Part shown: in pieces, positions 9,976 through 52,841 of the stretch
How the letters are laid out: every line of letters begins with the position of its first letter
How positions within the stretch are numbered: position 1 is the first letter of the stretch
DNA from: Rhizobiales bacterium Y(2018)
GTDB taxonomy: Bacteria; Pseudomonadota; Alphaproteobacteria; Rhizobiales; Aestuariivirgaceae
Reading direction: 5' to 3'
DNA length: 64,000 nt
Assembly (NCBI GenBank): GCA_005502925.1
Contig: SCPD01000002.1
Span: 248,001-312,000, forward strand
The notes under the pieces: generated by a model
Seen by the model: only the letters and a program-made list of their open reading frames with translations
Told to the model about the DNA's origin: nothing
Databases searched by the model: none
Program-made: the position numbers and the translations under genes

Positions 9976-10842
9976 ATGACATCCAAGATCGCCTATCAGG
10001 GCGAGCCCGGCGCCAATTCTCATATTGCCTGCCGTGAAGCCTATCCCGACCACGAGCCGGTGGCCTGCGGCACTTTCGAGGACGCCTTCGCCGCGGTGAA
10101 GGAGGGCGAGGTCGATCTCGCGATGATCCCGATCGACAATTCGGTGGCGGGCCGCGTCGCCGACATCCATCATCTTCTCCCCGCCTCCAATCTTTATATC
10201 GTCGGCGAGCACTTCCTGCGCGTCCATCACCAGCTTCTCCTGGTGCCGGGCGCCGATCCCTCGGGCCTCAAATCGGTTCACAGCCATGTTCATGCGTTGG
10301 GCCAATGCCGCAAGGTGATCCGCGCGATGAAGCTCAAGCCGGTGGTCGCCGCCGATACCGCGGGTGCGGCGCGTGAGCTCGCCGAGGCCAAGGACAAGAG
10401 CCGCGCCGCCATTGCCACCAAGCTCGCCGCCGAGATCTACGGCCTTGAAATCCTGAAAGAGAATGTCGAGGACGAGGAGCACAACACAACGCGTTTCATC
10501 GTGCTCTCCGCCACCCCGCATGATGCCGAGCCGGAAGACGCGCCGGTGGTCACGAGTTTTGTGTTTCGTGTGCGCAACGTTCCCGCCGCACTCTATAAGG
10601 CGATGGGCGGCTTCGCCACCAATGGCGTCAACATGACGAAGCTCGAATCCTACCAGCTCGAAGGCCAGTTCTCGGCGACGCAGTTCTATGCCGATGTCGA
10701 GGGCCATCCGTCCGAGCGCAATGTCAGGCTGGCGCTCGAGGAGCTCGAATTCTTCACCTCGCATCTGCGCGTGCTGGGCGTCTACAAAGCGAGCCCCTAT
10801 CGCGCCGAGATCGCGCGCCGTATGGCGAATTTCGGGAAGTAG
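9976..10842 (+). CDS. pheA: Prephenate dehydratase with C-terminal ACT domain
   Basis: This 288-residue enzyme converts prephenate to phenylpyruvate in phenylalanine synthesis. It is the monofunctional form, without a chorismate mutase domain. The catalytic region includes IAYQGEPGANSHIA, DLAMIPIDNSVAGRV and the essential Thr-Arg-Phe motif in NTTRFIVLS. The C-terminal ACT domain (about residues 195-275) should bind phenylalanine for feedback control; the position of the usual ESRP motif reads ESYQ. It probably shares a transcript with kdsB. Its TAG stop overlaps the first base of a palindromic element. Confidence 0.95.
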   Translation: MTSKIAYQGEPGANSHIACREAYPDHEPVACGTFEDAFAAVKEGEVDLAMIPIDNSVAGRVADIHHLLPASNLYIVGEHFLRVHHQLLLVPGADPSGLKSVHSHVHALGQCRKVIRAMKLKPVVAADTAGAARELAEAKDKSRAAIATKLAAEIYGLEILKENVEDEEHNTTRFIVLSATPHDAEPEDAPVVTSFVFRVRNVPAALYKAMGGFATNGVNMTKLESYQLEGQFSATQFYADVEGHPSERNVRLALEELEFFTSHLRVLGVYKASPYRAEIARRMANFGK

Positions 10843-41166: not shown

Positions 41167-41269
41167 CCCTCATCGCCCTGCACGGATGAGGCATATGGGC
41201 AAAGCGGGCGGCCGTCAGTCGAGATTAAGTTCTTCCCGGATTTAGTTTTTCTGCGGCTGGAAAGAAAAG

Positions 41270-41293
41270 GCGCTCGACCAAAAGGCCGAGCGC
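41270..41293 (-). terminator. Candidate terminator between mmsA and the serine acetyltransferase gene
   Basis: GCGCTCG pairs with CGAGCGC around a 10-base loop that is itself partly self-complementary (GGCC/TTTTGG). Read on the minus strand it is followed by CTTTTCTTTCC. The T-run is broken, so strength is uncertain. It lies 108 bases past the mmsA stop. Confidence 0.4.
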
Positions 41294-41400
41294 AAGTCTA
41301 GGGAGGAAACAGCCACGACGGCTGTCACGTGATTTCTATCACGCCGAGAGAATGCCGGGCTTGAGAAAACCGGAGCCCTAGGGTTAGTTTCTCTCGCGCT

Positions 41401-43939: not shown

Positions 43940-45097
43940 ATGCGACAGGGAATTGACGATTTCGACGAAAACCGCGTCGCGGCGATCAGCCGGGATGTCG
44001 CCGCGGCGATCGATGCCGCGACCTTCGGTGCCGGGTCCTGGGACGAGGTGCCGCTGGCGCTGAGCCGCGCTTTTCCCGGCTCCTTCGGCCTTCTGTACAA
44101 CATGAACTTCCCGGAAAAGCGGCTGAACTTCCTGTCGATCCAGAATACCGACCCGGCCTTCGTCGACTCCTATGGCGCGCATTTCGCCTATATCAATCCC
44201 TGGGCCGGCTATTGGAGCGCCATCAGGCGGTCGGTCGTCGCCGCCTCGGAGGATGTGTTTCCGGCGCGCAGCTTCGCCCGATCGGAGTTCTACAATGACT
44301 GGCTCCTGCCGCAGAACAAGGCGGAAGCCGCCGCCGGCATGAAGATCGTCGGCGAGCGCGACGAGGCGGTCTATCTCCTTCTGCATTTCCCGCTCGCCAA
44401 GTCCGGCCTCTATGACAAAGCGGGCGTCGAGATCCTCAACCGGGTGCGCGGAAATCTGGAGCGATCGGTCAATCTGGCGCGCCATCTGCGTGTGGATGTC
44501 GAGGCGGCGCTTGCCGACACGGCGCTCATCGAGCGCAGTCGGTCGGCGGCCTTCATCGTCGAAGGCGACCGGCGGCTGCGCGATGCGAATGCCGAGGCCG
44601 AGCGGCTGCTGTCGGCCGCAGATGGGGTGGCGGTCCGCCATGGCCGCTGTCACCTCGTGGACAAGGAAGCGGATGCTCGTTTCGGCGCCGCGCTGGAAAA
44701 GCTCATCGCGGGAATCCCGACAGGTGTTTCCCGCATCGCCTTCCGCACCACCGCCGGCGCCTGGCAGGTTTCGCTCGCCGCCATTCCGGTTCCCACCGAA
44801 TCCGGCGCGGTCGCATCTTTGCTGCCGCCGCGCCCGATGGTCCTGGTGCTGGTCACCGATCTCAGGCCGCAGACCATGGGAACCGGTGATCTTACCGTCC
44901 TTGCAAGTCTCTTCGCGCTGACGCCCGCGGAGATTGCGTTCTGCCGGCGGCTGCTTCTTGGGGAATCGGTGGCTGAGGCCGCCGAACGGCTCAGCCTCAC
45001 TGAAGGCACCGCCCGAACCCGGCTCAAGGCCATTCTTCACAAGACCGGCACCACGCGGCAGGGCCAGCTCATGCTGCTTTTGTCGCGACTCGGCTGA
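43940..45097 (+). CDS. LuxR-type regulator upstream of the exported-protease operon
   Basis: This 385-residue cytoplasmic protein ends with a LuxR-type helix-turn-helix (LTPAEIAFCRRLLLGESVAE followed by AAERLSLTEGTARTRLKAI, about residues 328-368). The first 300 residues form a sensory part without membrane helices. It is PAS-like in places (AFIVEGDRRLRDANAEAERL), followed by a region FRTTAGAWQVSLAAIPVP. It has no response-regulator Asp, so it is not a classic two-component output. It starts 42 bases after the LysR gene and is followed 83 bases later by three exported-protein genes, with a LuxR-like dyad between. Confidence 0.8.
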   Translation: MRQGIDDFDENRVAAISRDVAAAIDAATFGAGSWDEVPLALSRAFPGSFGLLYNMNFPEKRLNFLSIQNTDPAFVDSYGAHFAYINPWAGYWSAIRRSVVAASEDVFPARSFARSEFYNDWLLPQNKAEAAAGMKIVGERDEAVYLLLHFPLAKSGLYDKAGVEILNRVRGNLERSVNLARHLRVDVEAALADTALIERSRSAAFIVEGDRRLRDANAEAERLLSAADGVAVRHGRCHLVDKEADARFGAALEKLIAGIPTGVSRIAFRTTAGAWQVSLAAIPVPTESGAVASLLPPRPMVLVLVTDLRPQTMGTGDLTVLASLFALTPAEIAFCRRLLLGESVAEAAERLSLTEGTARTRLKAILHKTGTTRQGQLMLLLSRLG

Positions 45098-45109
45098 GCC
45101 TTTTGCTGC

Positions 45110-45129
45110 CCACTCCCATTTGGGAGTGG
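45110..45129. promoter_or_regulatory. 20-bp dyad, candidate operator for the LuxR-type regulator
   Basis: CCACTCCCA and TGGGAGTGG are perfect 9-bp arms around TT. The site lies 50 bases before the first gene of the exported-protein operon and 12 bases after the LuxR-gene stop. It lacks a T-run, so it is not a good terminator. A dyad of 18-20 bp suits LuxR-type dimers. Confidence 0.5.
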
Positions 45130-45179
45130 CCCAAGCCGTCCCGGCCCCTAGAAGCTGGCATCGTTCAGGAAGGATACCG

Positions 45180-45524
45180 ATGCCGCAAATCATTCACAGA
45201 GTACCGTGGGCTGTCCTTTGTACCATCATGCTGGCCAGTCCGGCATTTGCCGCCGCCGATTGCGAGTTCACCGATCCCGGCAAGGGGTTTTCGGTCGAAG
45301 GCGCCGTGCTCAATGTCGGCGCCGCCAATGATCTCGTCGTCGAGATGGGGTATCGCAAGGTGGTCGCCATTCAGGATAGGAATCGCGGCTGCATCGCTTA
45401 TGTGCAGACCCGCAAGGCTCACGCCTGCGCCAAGGGCAAGACCGCGACAGCCAAGGGCAAGACCTTCGTCATCACCTTCACGCCAGTGGTGTTGCCGGGT
45501 GCCGACAGCGTCAAATGCCGCTAG
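45180..45524 (+). CDS. Small exported protein of unknown function, first gene of the protease operon
   Basis: This 114-residue protein has a Sec signal (VPWAVLCTIMLASPAFAAA). The mature part of about 88 residues has four cysteines (in ADCEF, RGCIA, HACAK, VKCR), which could make two disulfides, and is rich in beta-prone Val/Ile (VVEMGYRKVVAIQ; FVITFTPVVL) and Lys/Ala. I do not recognise the family. AGGAAGGAT just upstream gives a strong start at 45180. It is 13 bases before the next gene. Confidence 0.7.
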   Translation: MPQIIHRVPWAVLCTIMLASPAFAAADCEFTDPGKGFSVEGAVLNVGAANDLVVEMGYRKVVAIQDRNRGCIAYVQTRKAHACAKGKTATAKGKTFVITFTPVVLPGADSVKCR

Positions 45525-45537
45525 CGGACGGAACGAC

Positions 45538-45861
45538 ATGAAGAAGCTTCTCCTCGTTCTCTTGTTCTGCACTGCTGCGAGCACGTCCCAGGCGAAATGC
45601 CCGGGCGACTCCGACGACGGCAAGCGGGTGACGGTCACCGGCAAGATCGCCTATGCCGACCGTCAGAGCGGCAAATTTCTCTTCGGACTCGAAGAGTGCG
45701 GGATTCTCGTCCACGCGAACAGCAACGGCAAAGGCGCCTGCAAGCTCGGCAGGACGCTCACGGTGACCGGCACCTTCTATGCCTGTGACTTTCTCGGTGA
45801 TTGCATGAAGGAGCTCGGTGACATGGATGCGATCGAGGCGAGCAAGGTGACATGCAAGTGA
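45538..45861 (+). CDS. Small exported cysteine-rich protein, OB-like, second gene of the protease operon
   Basis: This 107-residue protein has a Sec signal (MKKLLLVLLFCTAASTSQA). The mature part has six cysteines (KCPG, EECG, GACK, YACD, GDCM, VTCK) and beta-strand patterns VTVTGKIAYADR and LTVTGTFYACDF, compatible with a small OB-like fold; that is inference. The family is not recognised. The stop overlaps the start region of the protease fusion gene. It could be a chaperone, inhibitor or partner of the protease. Confidence 0.7.
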   Translation: MKKLLLVLLFCTAASTSQAKCPGDSDDGKRVTVTGKIAYADRQSGKFLFGLEECGILVHANSNGKGACKLGRTLTVTGTFYACDFLGDCMKELGDMDAIEASKVTCK

Positions 45862-47357
45862 TGATGATCTTGCGGGCGCTTCCTGTCATCGCGGTTCTGC
45901 AGGCGGGCATGATGGCTCTGCCCGCACAAGCGGCCGACGAAATCCGCGTCGGCTTCATGGAAGTCTACAGCGAGACCGGGCAGCGCCGGGAACGTTTCGA
46001 TGCGGCGATCGCGCGGGAACTGTGCCAATCCATCGGCAAGCCCTGCCGGACAGTCGAGATCAAGACGATGCCCGCCGGGAAAGATCTGCTCGAGGGGCGG
46101 GTGGATGTGCTGGTTTCCTATTTTGACAGCATCACCCGGGACGACAGGATTGCGGGAACACGCGACTATGCTCGCATGCCGCTTGCTTTTGTCGTGCGCA
46201 AGGACGCCGGAGTGAGCGAGATCAGCCCGGCGGCACTCGCGGGAAAGAAGATCGCTGTCGGCGACATGGTGGGCAAGGGTTTCGTCACCACCAGGCTGTC
46301 CAGGTCTGTACTGAGCCCGCGCGGGGATTTTCTCACGGCTCTTGCCAGCGGCGACGCCGATCTGGCGGTCGCGCGGCTTGATCTGGCGGTTTACGAAATC
46401 GACGCGGCGTCCGGCGAGTCCTGCTGCAAGGTTGTCGAAGTCCTCAATGACGTCGCCTCGATCACTCCCAACGATAGAGTCCTGGTCAGAAAATCCGACA
46501 AGGCGCTCAAGGAACTGGTCGACAAGACCATCGGCGAGATGGAGCGGAGCGGCAAGATCAAGGCGGCCGCCAAGGCCACTTTCGGTTTCGACGTGTCGCC
46601 CGAGGCGAAATCGGACAACCCTCATTTCCCGACCGCACCGGAAGCTTCGCGCGATATCGAGCCGGTGATCGCTACGCGCACGGTCAGGCTCGACATCAAC
46701 GGGGCGAGATGCTCAGGTGTTCTGGTGAGCGGCAGGGCGGTTCTGACAGCGGCGCACTGCTTCGACGATGCGAAGGGTAAAGTGAATGTGAAGCCTCGTC
46801 AGGTCGCACTTTACCAGAATGACAAGAAGCTCTCCCGCAAGGCTGCGCGCATCGTCATTCACCCCGACTATCGCGCCCTGACGGCCACGGATGTCGGGAG
46901 CAGCGACATAGCCCTGCTTCTCCTCGACGACGATGGGTCGACCTTGGCGCCGCCAAGACTCCTGACCGGACGCGAGGCGTTTCTGACCACGGATATGATG
47001 GATCTCCTGTTCGTCGACGCCGCACTTTATGGCTATGGGAACCGTGACCGGAAGGATGCGCGGCTTCTGAAGAGCCGGGCAAGAGTGAGCCTGATGGTGC
47101 CGCAGCCCGACTCCTTTCTCGGCCAATCCGTGAAGGTCTTTTTGAGATCACCGGAGTTCTGTCATGGCGACTCGGGTGGCGGCGTGTTCCTGGCGCCCGG
47201 CGGTGTCGTCGGCCTGGACGAACCACCCTTGCTGTTGGGAGTAGCGAGCGCCATCGGGGAAGCGAAAGCGCAGTGTGATGACTTCGGCGAGATCACGCGC
47301 GCCGATTTCTTTGCCGACTGGATGGCCGGCATCCTGAAGGAACACGGCGCTGATTGA
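45852..47357 (+). CDS. Exported fusion: periplasmic solute-binding domain plus chymotrypsin-fold serine protease
   Basis: This protein of about 501 residues has a signal peptide (ALPVIAVLQAGMMALPAQA), then a family 3 solute-binding-like domain (about 29-245; IRVGFMEVYSETGQRRERFD, DGRVD-like LEGRVDVLVSYFDS, GKKIAVGDMVGKGFV). From about 270 it is a trypsin-like protease: His302 in LTAAHCF, Asp352 in SSDIALLLL, Ser441 in HGDSGGGV. The spacings of 50 and 89 residues match chymotrypsin folds. Cys pairs flank the His (RCSGV, AHCF). ATG 45861, overlapping the previous stop as TGATG, is an alternative start. The fusion suggests ligand-gated proteolysis in the periplasm; this is inference. Confidence 0.8.
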   Translation: MQVMMILRALPVIAVLQAGMMALPAQAADEIRVGFMEVYSETGQRRERFDAAIARELCQSIGKPCRTVEIKTMPAGKDLLEGRVDVLVSYFDSITRDDRIAGTRDYARMPLAFVVRKDAGVSEISPAALAGKKIAVGDMVGKGFVTTRLSRSVLSPRGDFLTALASGDADLAVARLDLAVYEIDAASGESCCKVVEVLNDVASITPNDRVLVRKSDKALKELVDKTIGEMERSGKIKAAAKATFGFDVSPEAKSDNPHFPTAPEASRDIEPVIATRTVRLDINGARCSGVLVSGRAVLTAAHCFDDAKGKVNVKPRQVALYQNDKKLSRKAARIVIHPDYRALTATDVGSSDIALLLLDDDGSTLAPPRLLTGREAFLTTDMMDLLFVDAALYGYGNRDRKDARLLKSRARVSLMVPQPDSFLGQSVKVFLRSPEFCHGDSGGGVFLAPGGVVGLDEPPLLLGVASAIGEAKAQCDDFGEITRADFFADWMAGILKEHGAD

Positions 47358-47369
47358 GTCACTCTGTTA

Positions 47370-47397
47370 GTATGATGAATTTTGATAGACATCATAC
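47370..47397. promoter_or_regulatory. nikR operator: NikR operator before nikA
   Basis: GTATGA, 16 bases, then TCATAC: an exact match to the well-known NikR operator consensus GTATGA-N16-TCATAC. It lies 54 bases before the nikA ATG, and nikR itself is at the other end of the operon. Nickel-loaded NikR should repress nikABCDE here. Confidence 0.9.
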
Positions 47398-47450: not shown

Positions 47451-49016
47451 ATGCGAATAGCGAGGATCTTGGCTGGTCTGGCCATTCTGGCGCTGCTCGT
47501 CTCCGGGCCGGCGCGCGCCGAGACGACGCTGACCTATTCCTGGACCGCCAATGTCGGGCCGCTCAACCCGCATGCCTATGCGCCGAATGAGATGTTCGGA
47601 CAGGCCATGGTCTATGAGCCGCTGGTCAAGTACCACGCCGATGGCACGGTGGCGCCCTGGCTCGCCACCGGCTGGACCGTCTCCGGCGACGGCCATGTCT
47701 ATACCTTCACCTTGCGCAGGGACGTGAAATTCTCCGACGGCACGGTGTTCGACGCCGCCGCGGTCAAGGCCAATTTCGACACGGTCCTGGCGAGCCGCGA
47801 ACGCCACAACTGGCTCGAGCTCGCCAACCAGATCCGGCGGACGGAAGCTCTCGACGCCTCGACCTTCCGCCTCACCTTGAAGGAGGCCTATTACCCGGTC
47901 CTGCGGGAACTGGCGCTGATCCGGCCGTTCCGGTTCATTTCGCCGCCCGCCATTCCCGCCGAAGGCACCGCCGACAAGATCATCGCGCCGATCGGCACCG
48001 GGCCGTGGAAGCTCGCCGAGACGCGGCTCGGCGAATATGACCTCTTCGTCCGCAATGAGACCTACTGGGGACCGAAGCCGGTCTTCGACCAGATCCTGGT
48101 CAAGGTCATTCCCGATCCCAACAGCCGCGCCGTCGCCTTCGAGACCGGCGACATCGATCTGATCTATGGGGCGGGGCAGATATCGCCCGATGTCTTTGCG
48201 CGCTTCCAGGCCATGTATCCGAACAAAACGGCGGTGTCCCAGCCTTTGACGACCGAAATGGTGGCGCTCAACACCAATCGCGCGCCGACGAATGATCTGT
48301 TCGTCCGCAAGGCGATCAACCACGCGGTGGACAAGGACGGGATCGTCGACAGCGTCCTCTATGGCACGCAGAAACGAGCCGCTGCTTTGTTCGCCCCCAA
48401 TTTTCCTTATGCTGATGTGGGGCTCCATCCCTACATCTATGATCCGGCCAAGGCGGAAGCGCTTCTCGATGAAGCCGGCTGGCGCCGCATCGACGGCGAG
48501 GCGATCCGCGCCAAGGAGGGCGTGAAGCTCCGCATCGAGCTTTGTTATGTCGGCAACAATGCGCAGCAGAAGGCCATCGCCGAGGTCATCCAGGCCAATC
48601 TGCGCAAGATCGGCATCGATGTCATGCTGGTGGGCGAGGAATCCAATGCCTTCGAGACGCGCCAGCGCGAGGGCGAGTTCGGCATGATCTTCGGCGAGAC
48701 CTGGGGCGCTCCCTATGATCCGCATTCCTTCATCAGCTCGATGCGGGTGCCGTCGCATGCCGATTATCAGGCGCAGCTCGGCCTGCCGCTGAAGGGCGAG
48801 CTCGACGCCAAGATCGGCGAGGTGCTCGTCACCGTCGATGAGACCAAGCGCCGGCGGCTCTACCGCGACATCCTTACCGCACTCCACGAAGAGGCGGTTT
48901 ATCTGCCGCTGACCTACAGCACGGCGCCGCTGGTGGCGGGACCGAAGCTCGGTGCTGTCGGCTTCGGCCCGTCGGTTTCCGAGATCCCGTTCGAGACCTA
49001 TCCTCCGGCGAACTGA
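47451..49016 (+). CDS. nikA: Nickel ABC importer, periplasmic binding protein
   Basis: This 521-residue family 5 binding protein has a signal peptide ([18 protein letters not shown]). It contains [20 protein letters not shown], a NikA-type start of the mature protein, and [20 protein letters not shown] and NKDG-like [19 protein letters not shown]. NikA binds nickel as a chelate and delivers it to NikBC. It is the first gene of a full nikABCDE operon with a NikR operator. The stop overlaps the nikB start (TGATG). Confidence 0.93.
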
Positions 49017-51608: not shown

Positions 51609-52387
51609 GCCTGATCGCGGCCGAAGCGGTCGGCAAATCCTATCGCTCCGGCGCCTGGCTCGCGGCGCCTGAGCCCAAGACGGTTCTGCGGGATGTCGAC
51701 CTCGCCATCGCGCCCGGCGAATGTGTCGGGCTGCTCGGCCGTAGCGGCTGCGGCAAGAGCACCTTGGCGCGGCTGCTGCTCGGCCTCGAAACGCCCGATA
51801 CCGGGCGGATCACTTTTCGCGGGCGTGACATTGCCGGCATTGGCGGTGCGGAGCGGCGCGATTTCCGCCGCGCCGTCCAGCTCGTCTTTCAGGATTCGAT
51901 CGGCGCCGTCGATCCGCGCCATACGATCGAGCGGACGGTCGGCGAGCCGCTGCGGCATCTGACCGATCTCGACCACGATGCCCGAAGCGCGCGCGTCGCG
52001 GAATTGCTGGCGCTGGTGGGGCTCGACCGCCGCGACGGAGAGAAGCTGCCGGGGCAGATGAGCGGCGGCCAGCTCCAGCGCGTCTGCATCGCCCGCGCCT
52101 TGGCGCCGAAGCCGGAACTGATCGTCCTCGACGAGGCGGTTTCCAATCTCGATCTTGTCCTGCAATTGCAGATTCTCGATCTGCTGGCAGGCTTGCGCCG
52201 GCAACTGGGCACCGCCTTCCTGTTCATCACCCATGATCTGCGCCTCGCCCGGCGCCTGTGCGATCGGGTGCTGGTGATGGAAGAGGGCCGTATCGTCGAT
52301 GCGGCGAAGACGGTCTCGAGCCTTCATCATCCCGCATCGCGGGCGCTCAGCGCCGCAGTCTTACCGGCGCTTCCTATTTCACCTTGA
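51605..52387 (+). CDS. nikE: Nickel ABC importer, ATPase NikE
   Basis: This 260-residue ATPase has Walker A GRSGCGKS, Q-loop LVFQDSIGAVDPRHT, signature MSGGQLQRV and Walker B LIVLDEAVSNLD; the DEAVSNLD sequence is characteristic of NikE. It overlaps nikD by four bases (ATGA). Its last 14 bases overlap the 3' end of convergent nikR, so the operon and its regulator meet tail to tail. Confidence 0.92.
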   Translation: MSLIAAEAVGKSYRSGAWLAAPEPKTVLRDVDLAIAPGECVGLLGRSGCGKSTLARLLLGLETPDTGRITFRGRDIAGIGGAERRDFRRAVQLVFQDSIGAVDPRHTIERTVGEPLRHLTDLDHDARSARVAELLALVGLDRRDGEKLPGQMSGGQLQRVCIARALAPKPELIVLDEAVSNLDLVLQLQILDLLAGLRRQLGTAFLFITHDLRLARRLCDRVLVMEEGRIVDAAKTVSSLHHPASRALSAAVLPALPISP

Positions 52388-52841
52388 TATGCATATGGCG
52401 GTGCGGCGAGCTCTCGCCATGGCCGTGGCTGTGCGCTTCCATCTCGACCGGGATCAGCACCAGCTGACCATGGCGCACGCCGCGTTCGGCAATGACATGC
52501 TCGGCGCTGTGGCGGATTTCCTCCGTCGGCCCCTTCAGCACATTGATCTCCATGCAATTGTCGTGATCGAGATGGATATGCAGCGTCGATACCGACAGAT
52601 GATGATGGTCATGGAAGGTCTGCACCAGGCGCTTCGACAGCTCGCGGGCCGAGTGATCATAGACATAGATCAGCGCGCCGACGCAGTTGCCGGTCTCCGG
52701 CACGCTGACGGTCGCCTCGCGGATGCCGGCGCGCGCCAGGTCGCGGATGGCCTCGGAGCGGTTTTGATAGCCTTTCATCTCGATGACGCGATCGAGCTCG
52801 CTCATGAGATCGTCGTCCAGGGTGACGGTTACGCGCTGCAT
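52374..52841 (-). CDS. nikR: Nickel-responsive regulator NikR
   Basis: This 155-residue ribbon-helix-helix repressor has the N-terminal DNA-binding strand MQRVTVTLDDDLM and an ACT-like nickel domain. Nickel ligands align with those of E. coli: His77, His88, His90 and Cys96 in FHDHHHLSVSTLHIHLDHDNC. A His-rich tail (HSHGHGESSPHRHMH) after residue 140 is an extra metal-binding feature. Its cognate operator is at 47370-47397. It lies 60 bases after the fthC stop on the same strand. Confidence 0.95.
   Translation of the reverse strand: MQRVTVTLDDDLMSELDRVIEMKGYQNRSEAIRDLARAGIREATVSVPETGNCVGALIYVYDHSARELSKRLVQTFHDHHHLSVSTLHIHLDHDNCMEINVLKGPTEEIRHSAEHVIAERGVRHGQLVLIPVEMEAHSHGHGESSPHRHMHIKVK

Follow-up and report, generated by a model that had tools for sequence, protein, structure and literature searches.

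A LuxR-like regulator gene and its probable operator stand before exported proteins, the last a solute-binding/trypsin fusion, in a Rhizobiales bacterium

In a stretch of 64,000 nucleotides from Rhizobiales bacterium Y(2018) (GenBank assembly GCA_005502925.1, contig SCPD01000002.1, positions 248,001 to 312,000; referred to here as the window, and lying on C22, a contig of the 7.1-Mb source genome, G000), a gene for a LuxR-like regulator is followed by three genes for exported proteins, designated A, B, and C (Table 1). In C, a solute-binding protein (SBP) domain of family 3 is joined to a trypsin-like protease domain. The regulator, with a palindrome between its gene and A as its own operator, probably drives these exported proteins, of which the last is a lineage-specific SBP-protease fusion. 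Our account of how the locus works is tentative and stands at somewhat less than an even chance: the LuxR-like protein would bind the palindrome and activate A, B, and C, and C would be a protease with the SBP domain as its sensing or regulatory part.

An earlier note on the window had described C as a 501-residue protein joining these two domains, with His302, Asp352, and Ser441 as the catalytic residues. This description held. Both domains were recovered above their Pfam cut-offs, SBP_bac_3 (PF00497) at residues 49–244 (42.9 bits; cut-off 26.4) and trypsin (PF00089) at residues 278–490 (57.6 bits; cut-off 20.6). The candidate triad motifs TAAHC (H302), SDIAL (D352), and GDSGG (S441) aligned with those of four trypsin rows, and they are conserved in the homologue of Aestuariivirga sp. 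YIM B02566 (locus L007), the nearest named relative found, an alphaproteobacterium of the order Hyphomicrobiales. The structure of C was predicted by AlphaFold on a 10-row alignment, with moderate confidence (mean predicted local distance difference test score, pLDDT, 67.8; predicted template modelling score, pTM, 0.54). A 53-row alignment was dropped for modelling, as its SBP rows landed on the trypsin half. When the model was searched with Foldseek, proteins of the LAO/NocT/ArgBP type led among the matches listed (E down to 1.6e-13; template modelling score by target 0.45–0.69), pointing to the two-lobe periplasmic binding fold. For residues 267–501, trypsin-like proteases led among the matches listed by VIA-align (Z 18.9–19.4; root mean square deviation, rmsd, 3.0–3.6 over 196–215 residues).

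Like the amino-acid and opine binding proteins LAO, HisJ, NocT, and ArgBP, with which it shares family and fold, C keeps the arginine and acidic anchors in kind. We compared C with HisJ at positions which, judging by LAO mutant structure entries, form the ligand pocket. D50, S89, and R96 of C keep D30, S69, and R77 of HisJ, and E182 replaces D161, the acidic character being kept. Unlike these binding proteins, C is fused to a protease and has nik-type ATP-binding cassette (ABC) genes as neighbours. Two features weigh against a ligand-sensing role of the domain. Several pocket positions are altered (S70 of HisJ to Y90, S72 to D92, and residue 52 to T72), and the loop at 38–46 is shorter than in other SBPs and was poorly modelled, at low confidence. 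Both would suit a different role, in which the domain does not switch the protease but docks or targets it to a substrate, a membrane partner, or the cell wall; this role would also suit the adjacent nik-type ABC genes, which come with NikA as their binding protein and leave C without permease or ATPase genes of its own. We consider docking rather unlikely, as R96, E182, D50, and S89 retain the character of the pocket positions, and nonsynonymous divergence is lower in the SBP half than in the protease half (dN 0.105 vs 0.163), though synonymous divergence is too (dS 0.187 vs 0.467). These values, and those below, were obtained by the method of Nei and Gojobori for the window and G054, the fusion-bearing genome of our family sample.

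The protease half has its own points against a ligand-controlled enzyme. No IVGG-type N-terminus was present at residues 255–277 of C in the window or in L007, and the candidate cleavage site for activation is not conserved (SRDIEP in the window, SWEIEP in L007). A free protease N-terminus may therefore never form. In an alignment with factor D, V278 of C pairs with residue 16 of the factor D chain, and thus the first residue of factor D (Ile in the mature protein) falls near P263. Three single-domain bacterial trypsins (L038, L039, L041) are like C in that TAAHC, D352, and GDSGG are aligned, at 30–39% identity depending on the alignment. Unlike C, they start with an IKGG-type sequence right after a signal-like sequence, so the SBP domain of C takes the position of the activation terminus. 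The protease may then need no such terminus, or another may be released when the linker is cut. E435 lies six residues before S441 in both fusions, at position 189 by count, and suggests a preference for basic P1 residues. Ligand-gated proteolysis would be the most likely function of the fusion; with the pocket residues partly kept and partly changed, and with no IVGG terminus, it is only plausible.

The joining of the two domains by a sequencing artefact had been raised as a possibility in the earlier note. The homologue of C in Aestuariivirga sp. YIM B02566 is full-length, 77.9% identical (388/498 aligned residues), and found in the same gene order (LysR-LuxR-A-B-C-nik), which makes an artefact unlikely; the fusion is genuine. 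Sequence searches returned this second full-length fusion, in one related species, and none further in the sampled genomes or plasmids. Full-length C was present in two of the 69 genomes of the family (G000 and G054), and in one each of 337 class and 249 phylum genomes, itself in both cases; the three samples overlap. Some match to C was obtained in 52, 66, and 65 of these genomes, respectively, those beyond the full-length ones being partial. The partial match that straddled the domains most (G773; query residues 184–359) carries an internal TAG stop. When the trypsin half was searched in 397 order genomes, 76 had matches, only G000 above 53 bits, and no fused SBP domain was seen in the long trypsin matches L045, L046, L058, L064, and L066, whose frames were read by eye. 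Among plasmids, 59 records matched C, none covering 80% of the query in one place. A peptide-pattern scan of 84,980 species, which reaches close relatives only, found one C locus.

All genes of the block have dN/dS below 1 (MMSDH 0.01, LysR 0.05, LuxR 0.23, A 0.27, B 0.26, C 0.42, NikA 0.16, NikB 0.10), and C is under purifying selection. Compared with the flanks (about 0.18–0.20), dS is raised in the LuxR-like gene (0.587) and in the protease half of C (46602–47357; value above), which suggests past recombination or allele swapping at both. It also weighs against our account that only two species are known to carry the fusion. A neutral or recent fusion in one lineage, that is, an exported protease carrying a leftover SBP domain, would agree with its restriction to G000 and G054 among the sampled genomes, with a dN/dS for C that is the highest of the block, and with a third genome, G057, that manages without it. 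Yet over a protein divergence of 22%, purifying selection has acted on both halves and the triad residues have been retained, and we regard a neutral fusion as distinctly unlikely.

In G057, the third genome of the genus, the LuxR-like gene (76% identical), the exact palindrome, A, and B are followed by a different gene, D, and then by the NikR-type box and the nik genes. Protein D, which replaces C, has 914 residues, is exported, and shows beta-propeller matches; a search of the seven other genomes gave no match to it, and G057 itself holds a weak second one (E 1.4e-4). The conserved module is thus the regulator, the palindrome, A, and B, and the last gene is exchangeable. In so far as the earlier note treats the fusion as the core of the system, it is not supported, since LuxR, palindrome, A, and B are kept in G057 without it. 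The note had asked whether the genes stay together in other genomes: regulator, A, B, and C do so in L007, but in G057 regulator, A, and B only. In G055, the palindrome with one mismatch and then a fragment of gene A lie behind a metF-like gene (L102, about 10388–10470; by eye), and this stretch looks like a remnant of the module at another place.

The single operon proposed earlier is favoured by the gap of 13 bases between A and B, the overlap of 10 bases between B and C (from the coordinates of the open reading frames), and the conserved palindrome ahead of A, although its third gene is not fixed, as G057 has D. A and B had been called small, exported, Cys-rich, and unrecognised. As read from the sequence, both have a signal-like N-terminus, followed by four Cys in A and six in B, and neither has a Pfam family above cut-off. 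For A, the description stands. For B, it is qualified by a low-confidence model of five strands (pLDDT 59.6, pTM 0.52), whose Foldseek matches contain OB folds (best E 1.8e-4). VIA-align also pointed to OB folds, with Z reaching 10.3 and an rmsd of 2.6 across 85 residues; B may therefore have an OB fold, at low confidence. A is 89% identical in G054 and 67% in G057; for B the values are 87% and 75%. A profile of B matched three of the 69 family genomes, and the single B sequence one of the 397 order genomes (itself). Homology between A and B, suspected by eye, is not claimed (hhalign probability 1.1%; Smith-Waterman z from 3.5 down to 1.0 for four pairs). A likeness of A to CTLA-4 (14 matches in a PDB sequence search, E 0.12–0.19, over residues 10–47 including the signal region) was rejected. 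A PADLOC match of LmuA to the protease part of C (20.6 bits, E 5.5e-5) was taken as generic protease similarity, and PADLOC matched none of A, B, and D.

The palindrome is invariant in G000, G054, and G057 while the flanking bases differ, and has one change in G055. Each of these four genomes has a single copy of its 16-bp core when one mismatch is allowed, and none was found in G056, an 87% complete genome. A reversed control pattern is also present, with three copies in G000 and one in G054, so that the evidence for the palindrome is its place, not its count. TAGAAG lies 19 nucleotides after the palindrome in the window and in L007, and TGCAAG at the same distance in G057. If TAGAAG is a −10 element, the centre of the palindrome would be near −42, and LuxR-type activators usually sit near −42. 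Neither a terminator nor a sigma-70 consensus was called at this stretch. As RNA, the palindrome would form an 8-bp hairpin and might serve as an attenuator or terminator after the LuxR-like gene instead of as a protein site. This is very unlikely, given the lack of a terminator call and of a T-run at the palindrome, intergenic folding no better than that of shuffles (z −0.86), and a similar core (one mismatch) 5′ of regulator genes in G323 and G284, where a terminator of that gene would be senseless. A site of TspR in Acidithiobacillus caldus, TGTCCCAAATGGGACA, resembles the palindrome; it belongs to a thiosulfate two-component system (PMC6335251), and no link was made.

The regulator has relatives in other genomes, a profile of three regulators matching 50 of 249 order genomes (E up to 1e-10) and nine of 99 genomes of genus g70 (E up to 1e-30). 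In three other families, four genomes have the core, exact or with one mismatch, next to a related regulator gene, and in three of the four it precedes unrelated exported or secreted proteins. In G307, an exact core lies about 180 bases 3′ of the regulator gene, ahead of an exported 347-residue protein. G323 has one site 5′ of the regulator gene (one mismatch) and an exact one 3′, ahead of a similar protein of 350 residues. With one mismatch, the core precedes a 937-residue RTX-repeat protein (PF00353, 23 stretches) in G280 and lies 5′ of the regulator gene in G284. At two mismatches it was found 5′ of the regulator gene in G170 and, on contig C38 of G982, ahead of a lipoprotein-like gene and a gene for a Slam protein (PF04575, 100 bits). 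The second gene behind the site encodes a small exported protein in G323 (L161 5542–5934), with a similar one in G307 (L135); that of G323 has a Rap1a immunity match below threshold (17.7 bits; cut-off 27.7). The G982 stretch (L162 5784–9560, minus strand), with its regulator relative, degenerate site, lipoprotein-like gene, and Slam protein, may hold a regulator of surface lipoprotein export.

We counted sites at 15 regulator loci taken as closest, the window included (seven from the order search and eight from genus g70; a second G290 gene, of 119 bits and siteless, was left out). The 14-bp core was present in 3, 5, and 7 loci at up to 0, 1, and 2 mismatches. In contrast, 29 permuted-palindrome controls gave 0, at most 1, and a mean of 2.1 (maximum 7). 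Without the window, sites were present in 2, 4, and 6 of the 14 loci. Among the 30 loci of the order search (L104–L133, window included), two were exact and five had up to one mismatch, compared with 0 and at most 1 for the 29 permuted controls; one of the five, L117, is inside the regulator coding region and probably due to chance. In nine genomes outside the family, five of 18 sites (up to one mismatch; positions compared by hand) were at most 400 bp from a regulator gene, such stretches being about 0.04% of 49 Mb, a count that is biased because G307, G323, G280, and G284 were chosen after the sites had been seen. Some counts speak against the operator. At two mismatches the 30 loci give no signal (7 vs a control mean of 3.7, maximum 10), and the 7 of the 15 loci is equalled by the best control. 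At up to one mismatch, 10 of the 15 loci are siteless, and G982 C23 (498 bits), which ranks second among the regulators outside the genus in closeness, has no site at up to two.

The class of the regulator is itself a weak point. All its Pfam matches are under cut-off (Sigma70_r4_2, PF08281, 19.2 against 25.7; PAS_4, 14.0; GerE, PF00196, 11.9 against 23.5), and sigma-70 region 4 outscores GerE, the LuxR helix-turn-helix (HTH). None of its four Pfam matches at E up to 1 is an autoinducer-binding domain. We call it LuxR-like by layout only, that is, by its length and C-terminal HTH, and to this extent the earlier assignment to the LuxR type stands. It is 79% identical to its counterpart in G054. 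Its relatives show similarly weak Pfam matches, the best for that of G323 being GerE at 17.7 bits, under cut-off. When the PDB was searched with the LuxR-like profile, two matches were obtained (E 0.12 and 0.58) and rejected. PimM and PteF of Streptomyces are PAS-LuxR regulators with a LuxR-type HTH, a PAS domain, and a palindromic operator. Unlike these, the window regulator has a different operator and different targets, and its PAS and HTH assignments are below cut-off.

In the account that we tentatively favour, the LuxR-like protein would be a regulator acting locally: bound to the palindrome, it would switch on the A-B-C operon, and the three exported, disulfide-rich proteins would be produced together. 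C would then be a periplasmic or secreted S1 protease, in which the N-terminal SBP domain binds a small ligand, probably amino-acid-like or a short peptide; closing of the clamshell would alter access to the active site of the protease, or its order. Here we infer that the regulator binds DNA and activates instead of repressing, that the proteins are exported, and that C is an active protease controlled by a ligand. A wider proposal, which we think improbable as a whole, is that of an export cassette with a plug-in payload. LuxR-like regulators of one family, of which many would have a CTCCCAnnTGGGAG operator to themselves, would control constant partners A and B that serve, as common chaperones, inhibitors, or anchors, whatever protein sits last. 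The payload would be the SBP-protease fusion in two species, here a ligand-switched periplasmic protease, and a beta-propeller protein in a third.

Table 1. Positions of the regulator, the putative operator, genes A to C, and the neighbouring nickel genes in the window.
Feature	Position	Strand	Basis or remark
LuxR-like regulator, 385 aa	43940–45097	+	C-terminal HTH of LuxR/sigma-region-4 type, weak PAS-like middle
Perfect 20-bp palindrome CCACTCCCATTTGGGAGTGG, putative operator of the LuxR-like protein	45110–45129	.	Invariant in G000, G054, G057
TAGAAG, possible −10 element	45149–45154	+	Picked by eye, inferred
Gene A, exported 114-aa protein, 4 mature Cys	45180–45524	+	Open reading frame list, Pfam
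Gene B, exported 107-aa protein, 6 mature Cys, predicted OB fold	45538–45861	+	Open reading frame list, Pfam, model
Gene C, exported 501-aa fusion of SBP family 3 (49–244) and S1 trypsin (278–490)	45852–47357	+	Pfam, homologue, model
NikR-type box GTATGA-N16-TCATAC, start of a separate nik unit	47370–47397	.	Present in window, L007, L101
nikA, nickel-type solute-binding protein; operon neighbour, non-member	47451–49016	+	TIGR02294, 681 bits (cut-off 393)
NikR gene, far end of the nik genes	52374–52841	−	NikR_C, 98.4 bits (cut-off 22)

The nik genes, the NikR-type box, and the NikR gene look like a self-contained unit for nickel uptake. That the A-B-C operon is an accessory of this uptake, for example in periplasmic metal handling, is highly improbable: the block does stand directly before nik genes in G000, G054, and G057, and an opp/nik-looking ABC set was seen by eye in G284 and G243 at least 2 kb after the regulator gene and beyond other genes, but a separate NikR-type box serves the nik genes, and reading by eye of stretches in G307, G323, G280, and G982 revealed no nik-like set there. 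Elsewhere in the window, a suhB/mmgR small RNA (41256–41329, minus strand; 43.8 bits, gathering 41) was the sole Rfam match above gathering.

The earlier note had known of no described system with this layout, and in a term search of the open-licence literature, which is weak evidence of absence, no published SBP-trypsin layout was found. The nearest mechanistic precedent is MltF, the regulatory N-terminal domain of which is of SBP family 3. MltF differs in that its catalytic domain is a transglycosylase, whereas that of C is an S1 protease; no MltF-type transglycosylase domain is present in C, the C-terminal half of which is trypsin by Pfam. The likeness is that of an envelope enzyme with a ligand-sensing N-terminal domain that switches a C-terminal catalytic domain: in MltF, engagement of a muropeptide by the regulatory N-terminal domain triggers the active conformation of the enzyme (PMC10746161). 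Venus flytrap sensor kinases of the BvgS type likewise use a periplasmic bi-lobed domain in sensing (PMC4352136, PMC5829827); their output is a kinase, with no protease.

Solute-binding domains are known from transport systems, and they also do the sensing for kinases and for a cell-wall enzyme; with an S1 protease they would gain a new output. If this holds, the fusion of an SBP domain with an S1 protease would be a natural scaffold for ligand-gated proteolysis. Since the position that follows this regulator and site can be taken by a different exported protein, the palindrome together with the regulator offers a testable handle for finding operons of exported proteins that no family name would reveal.

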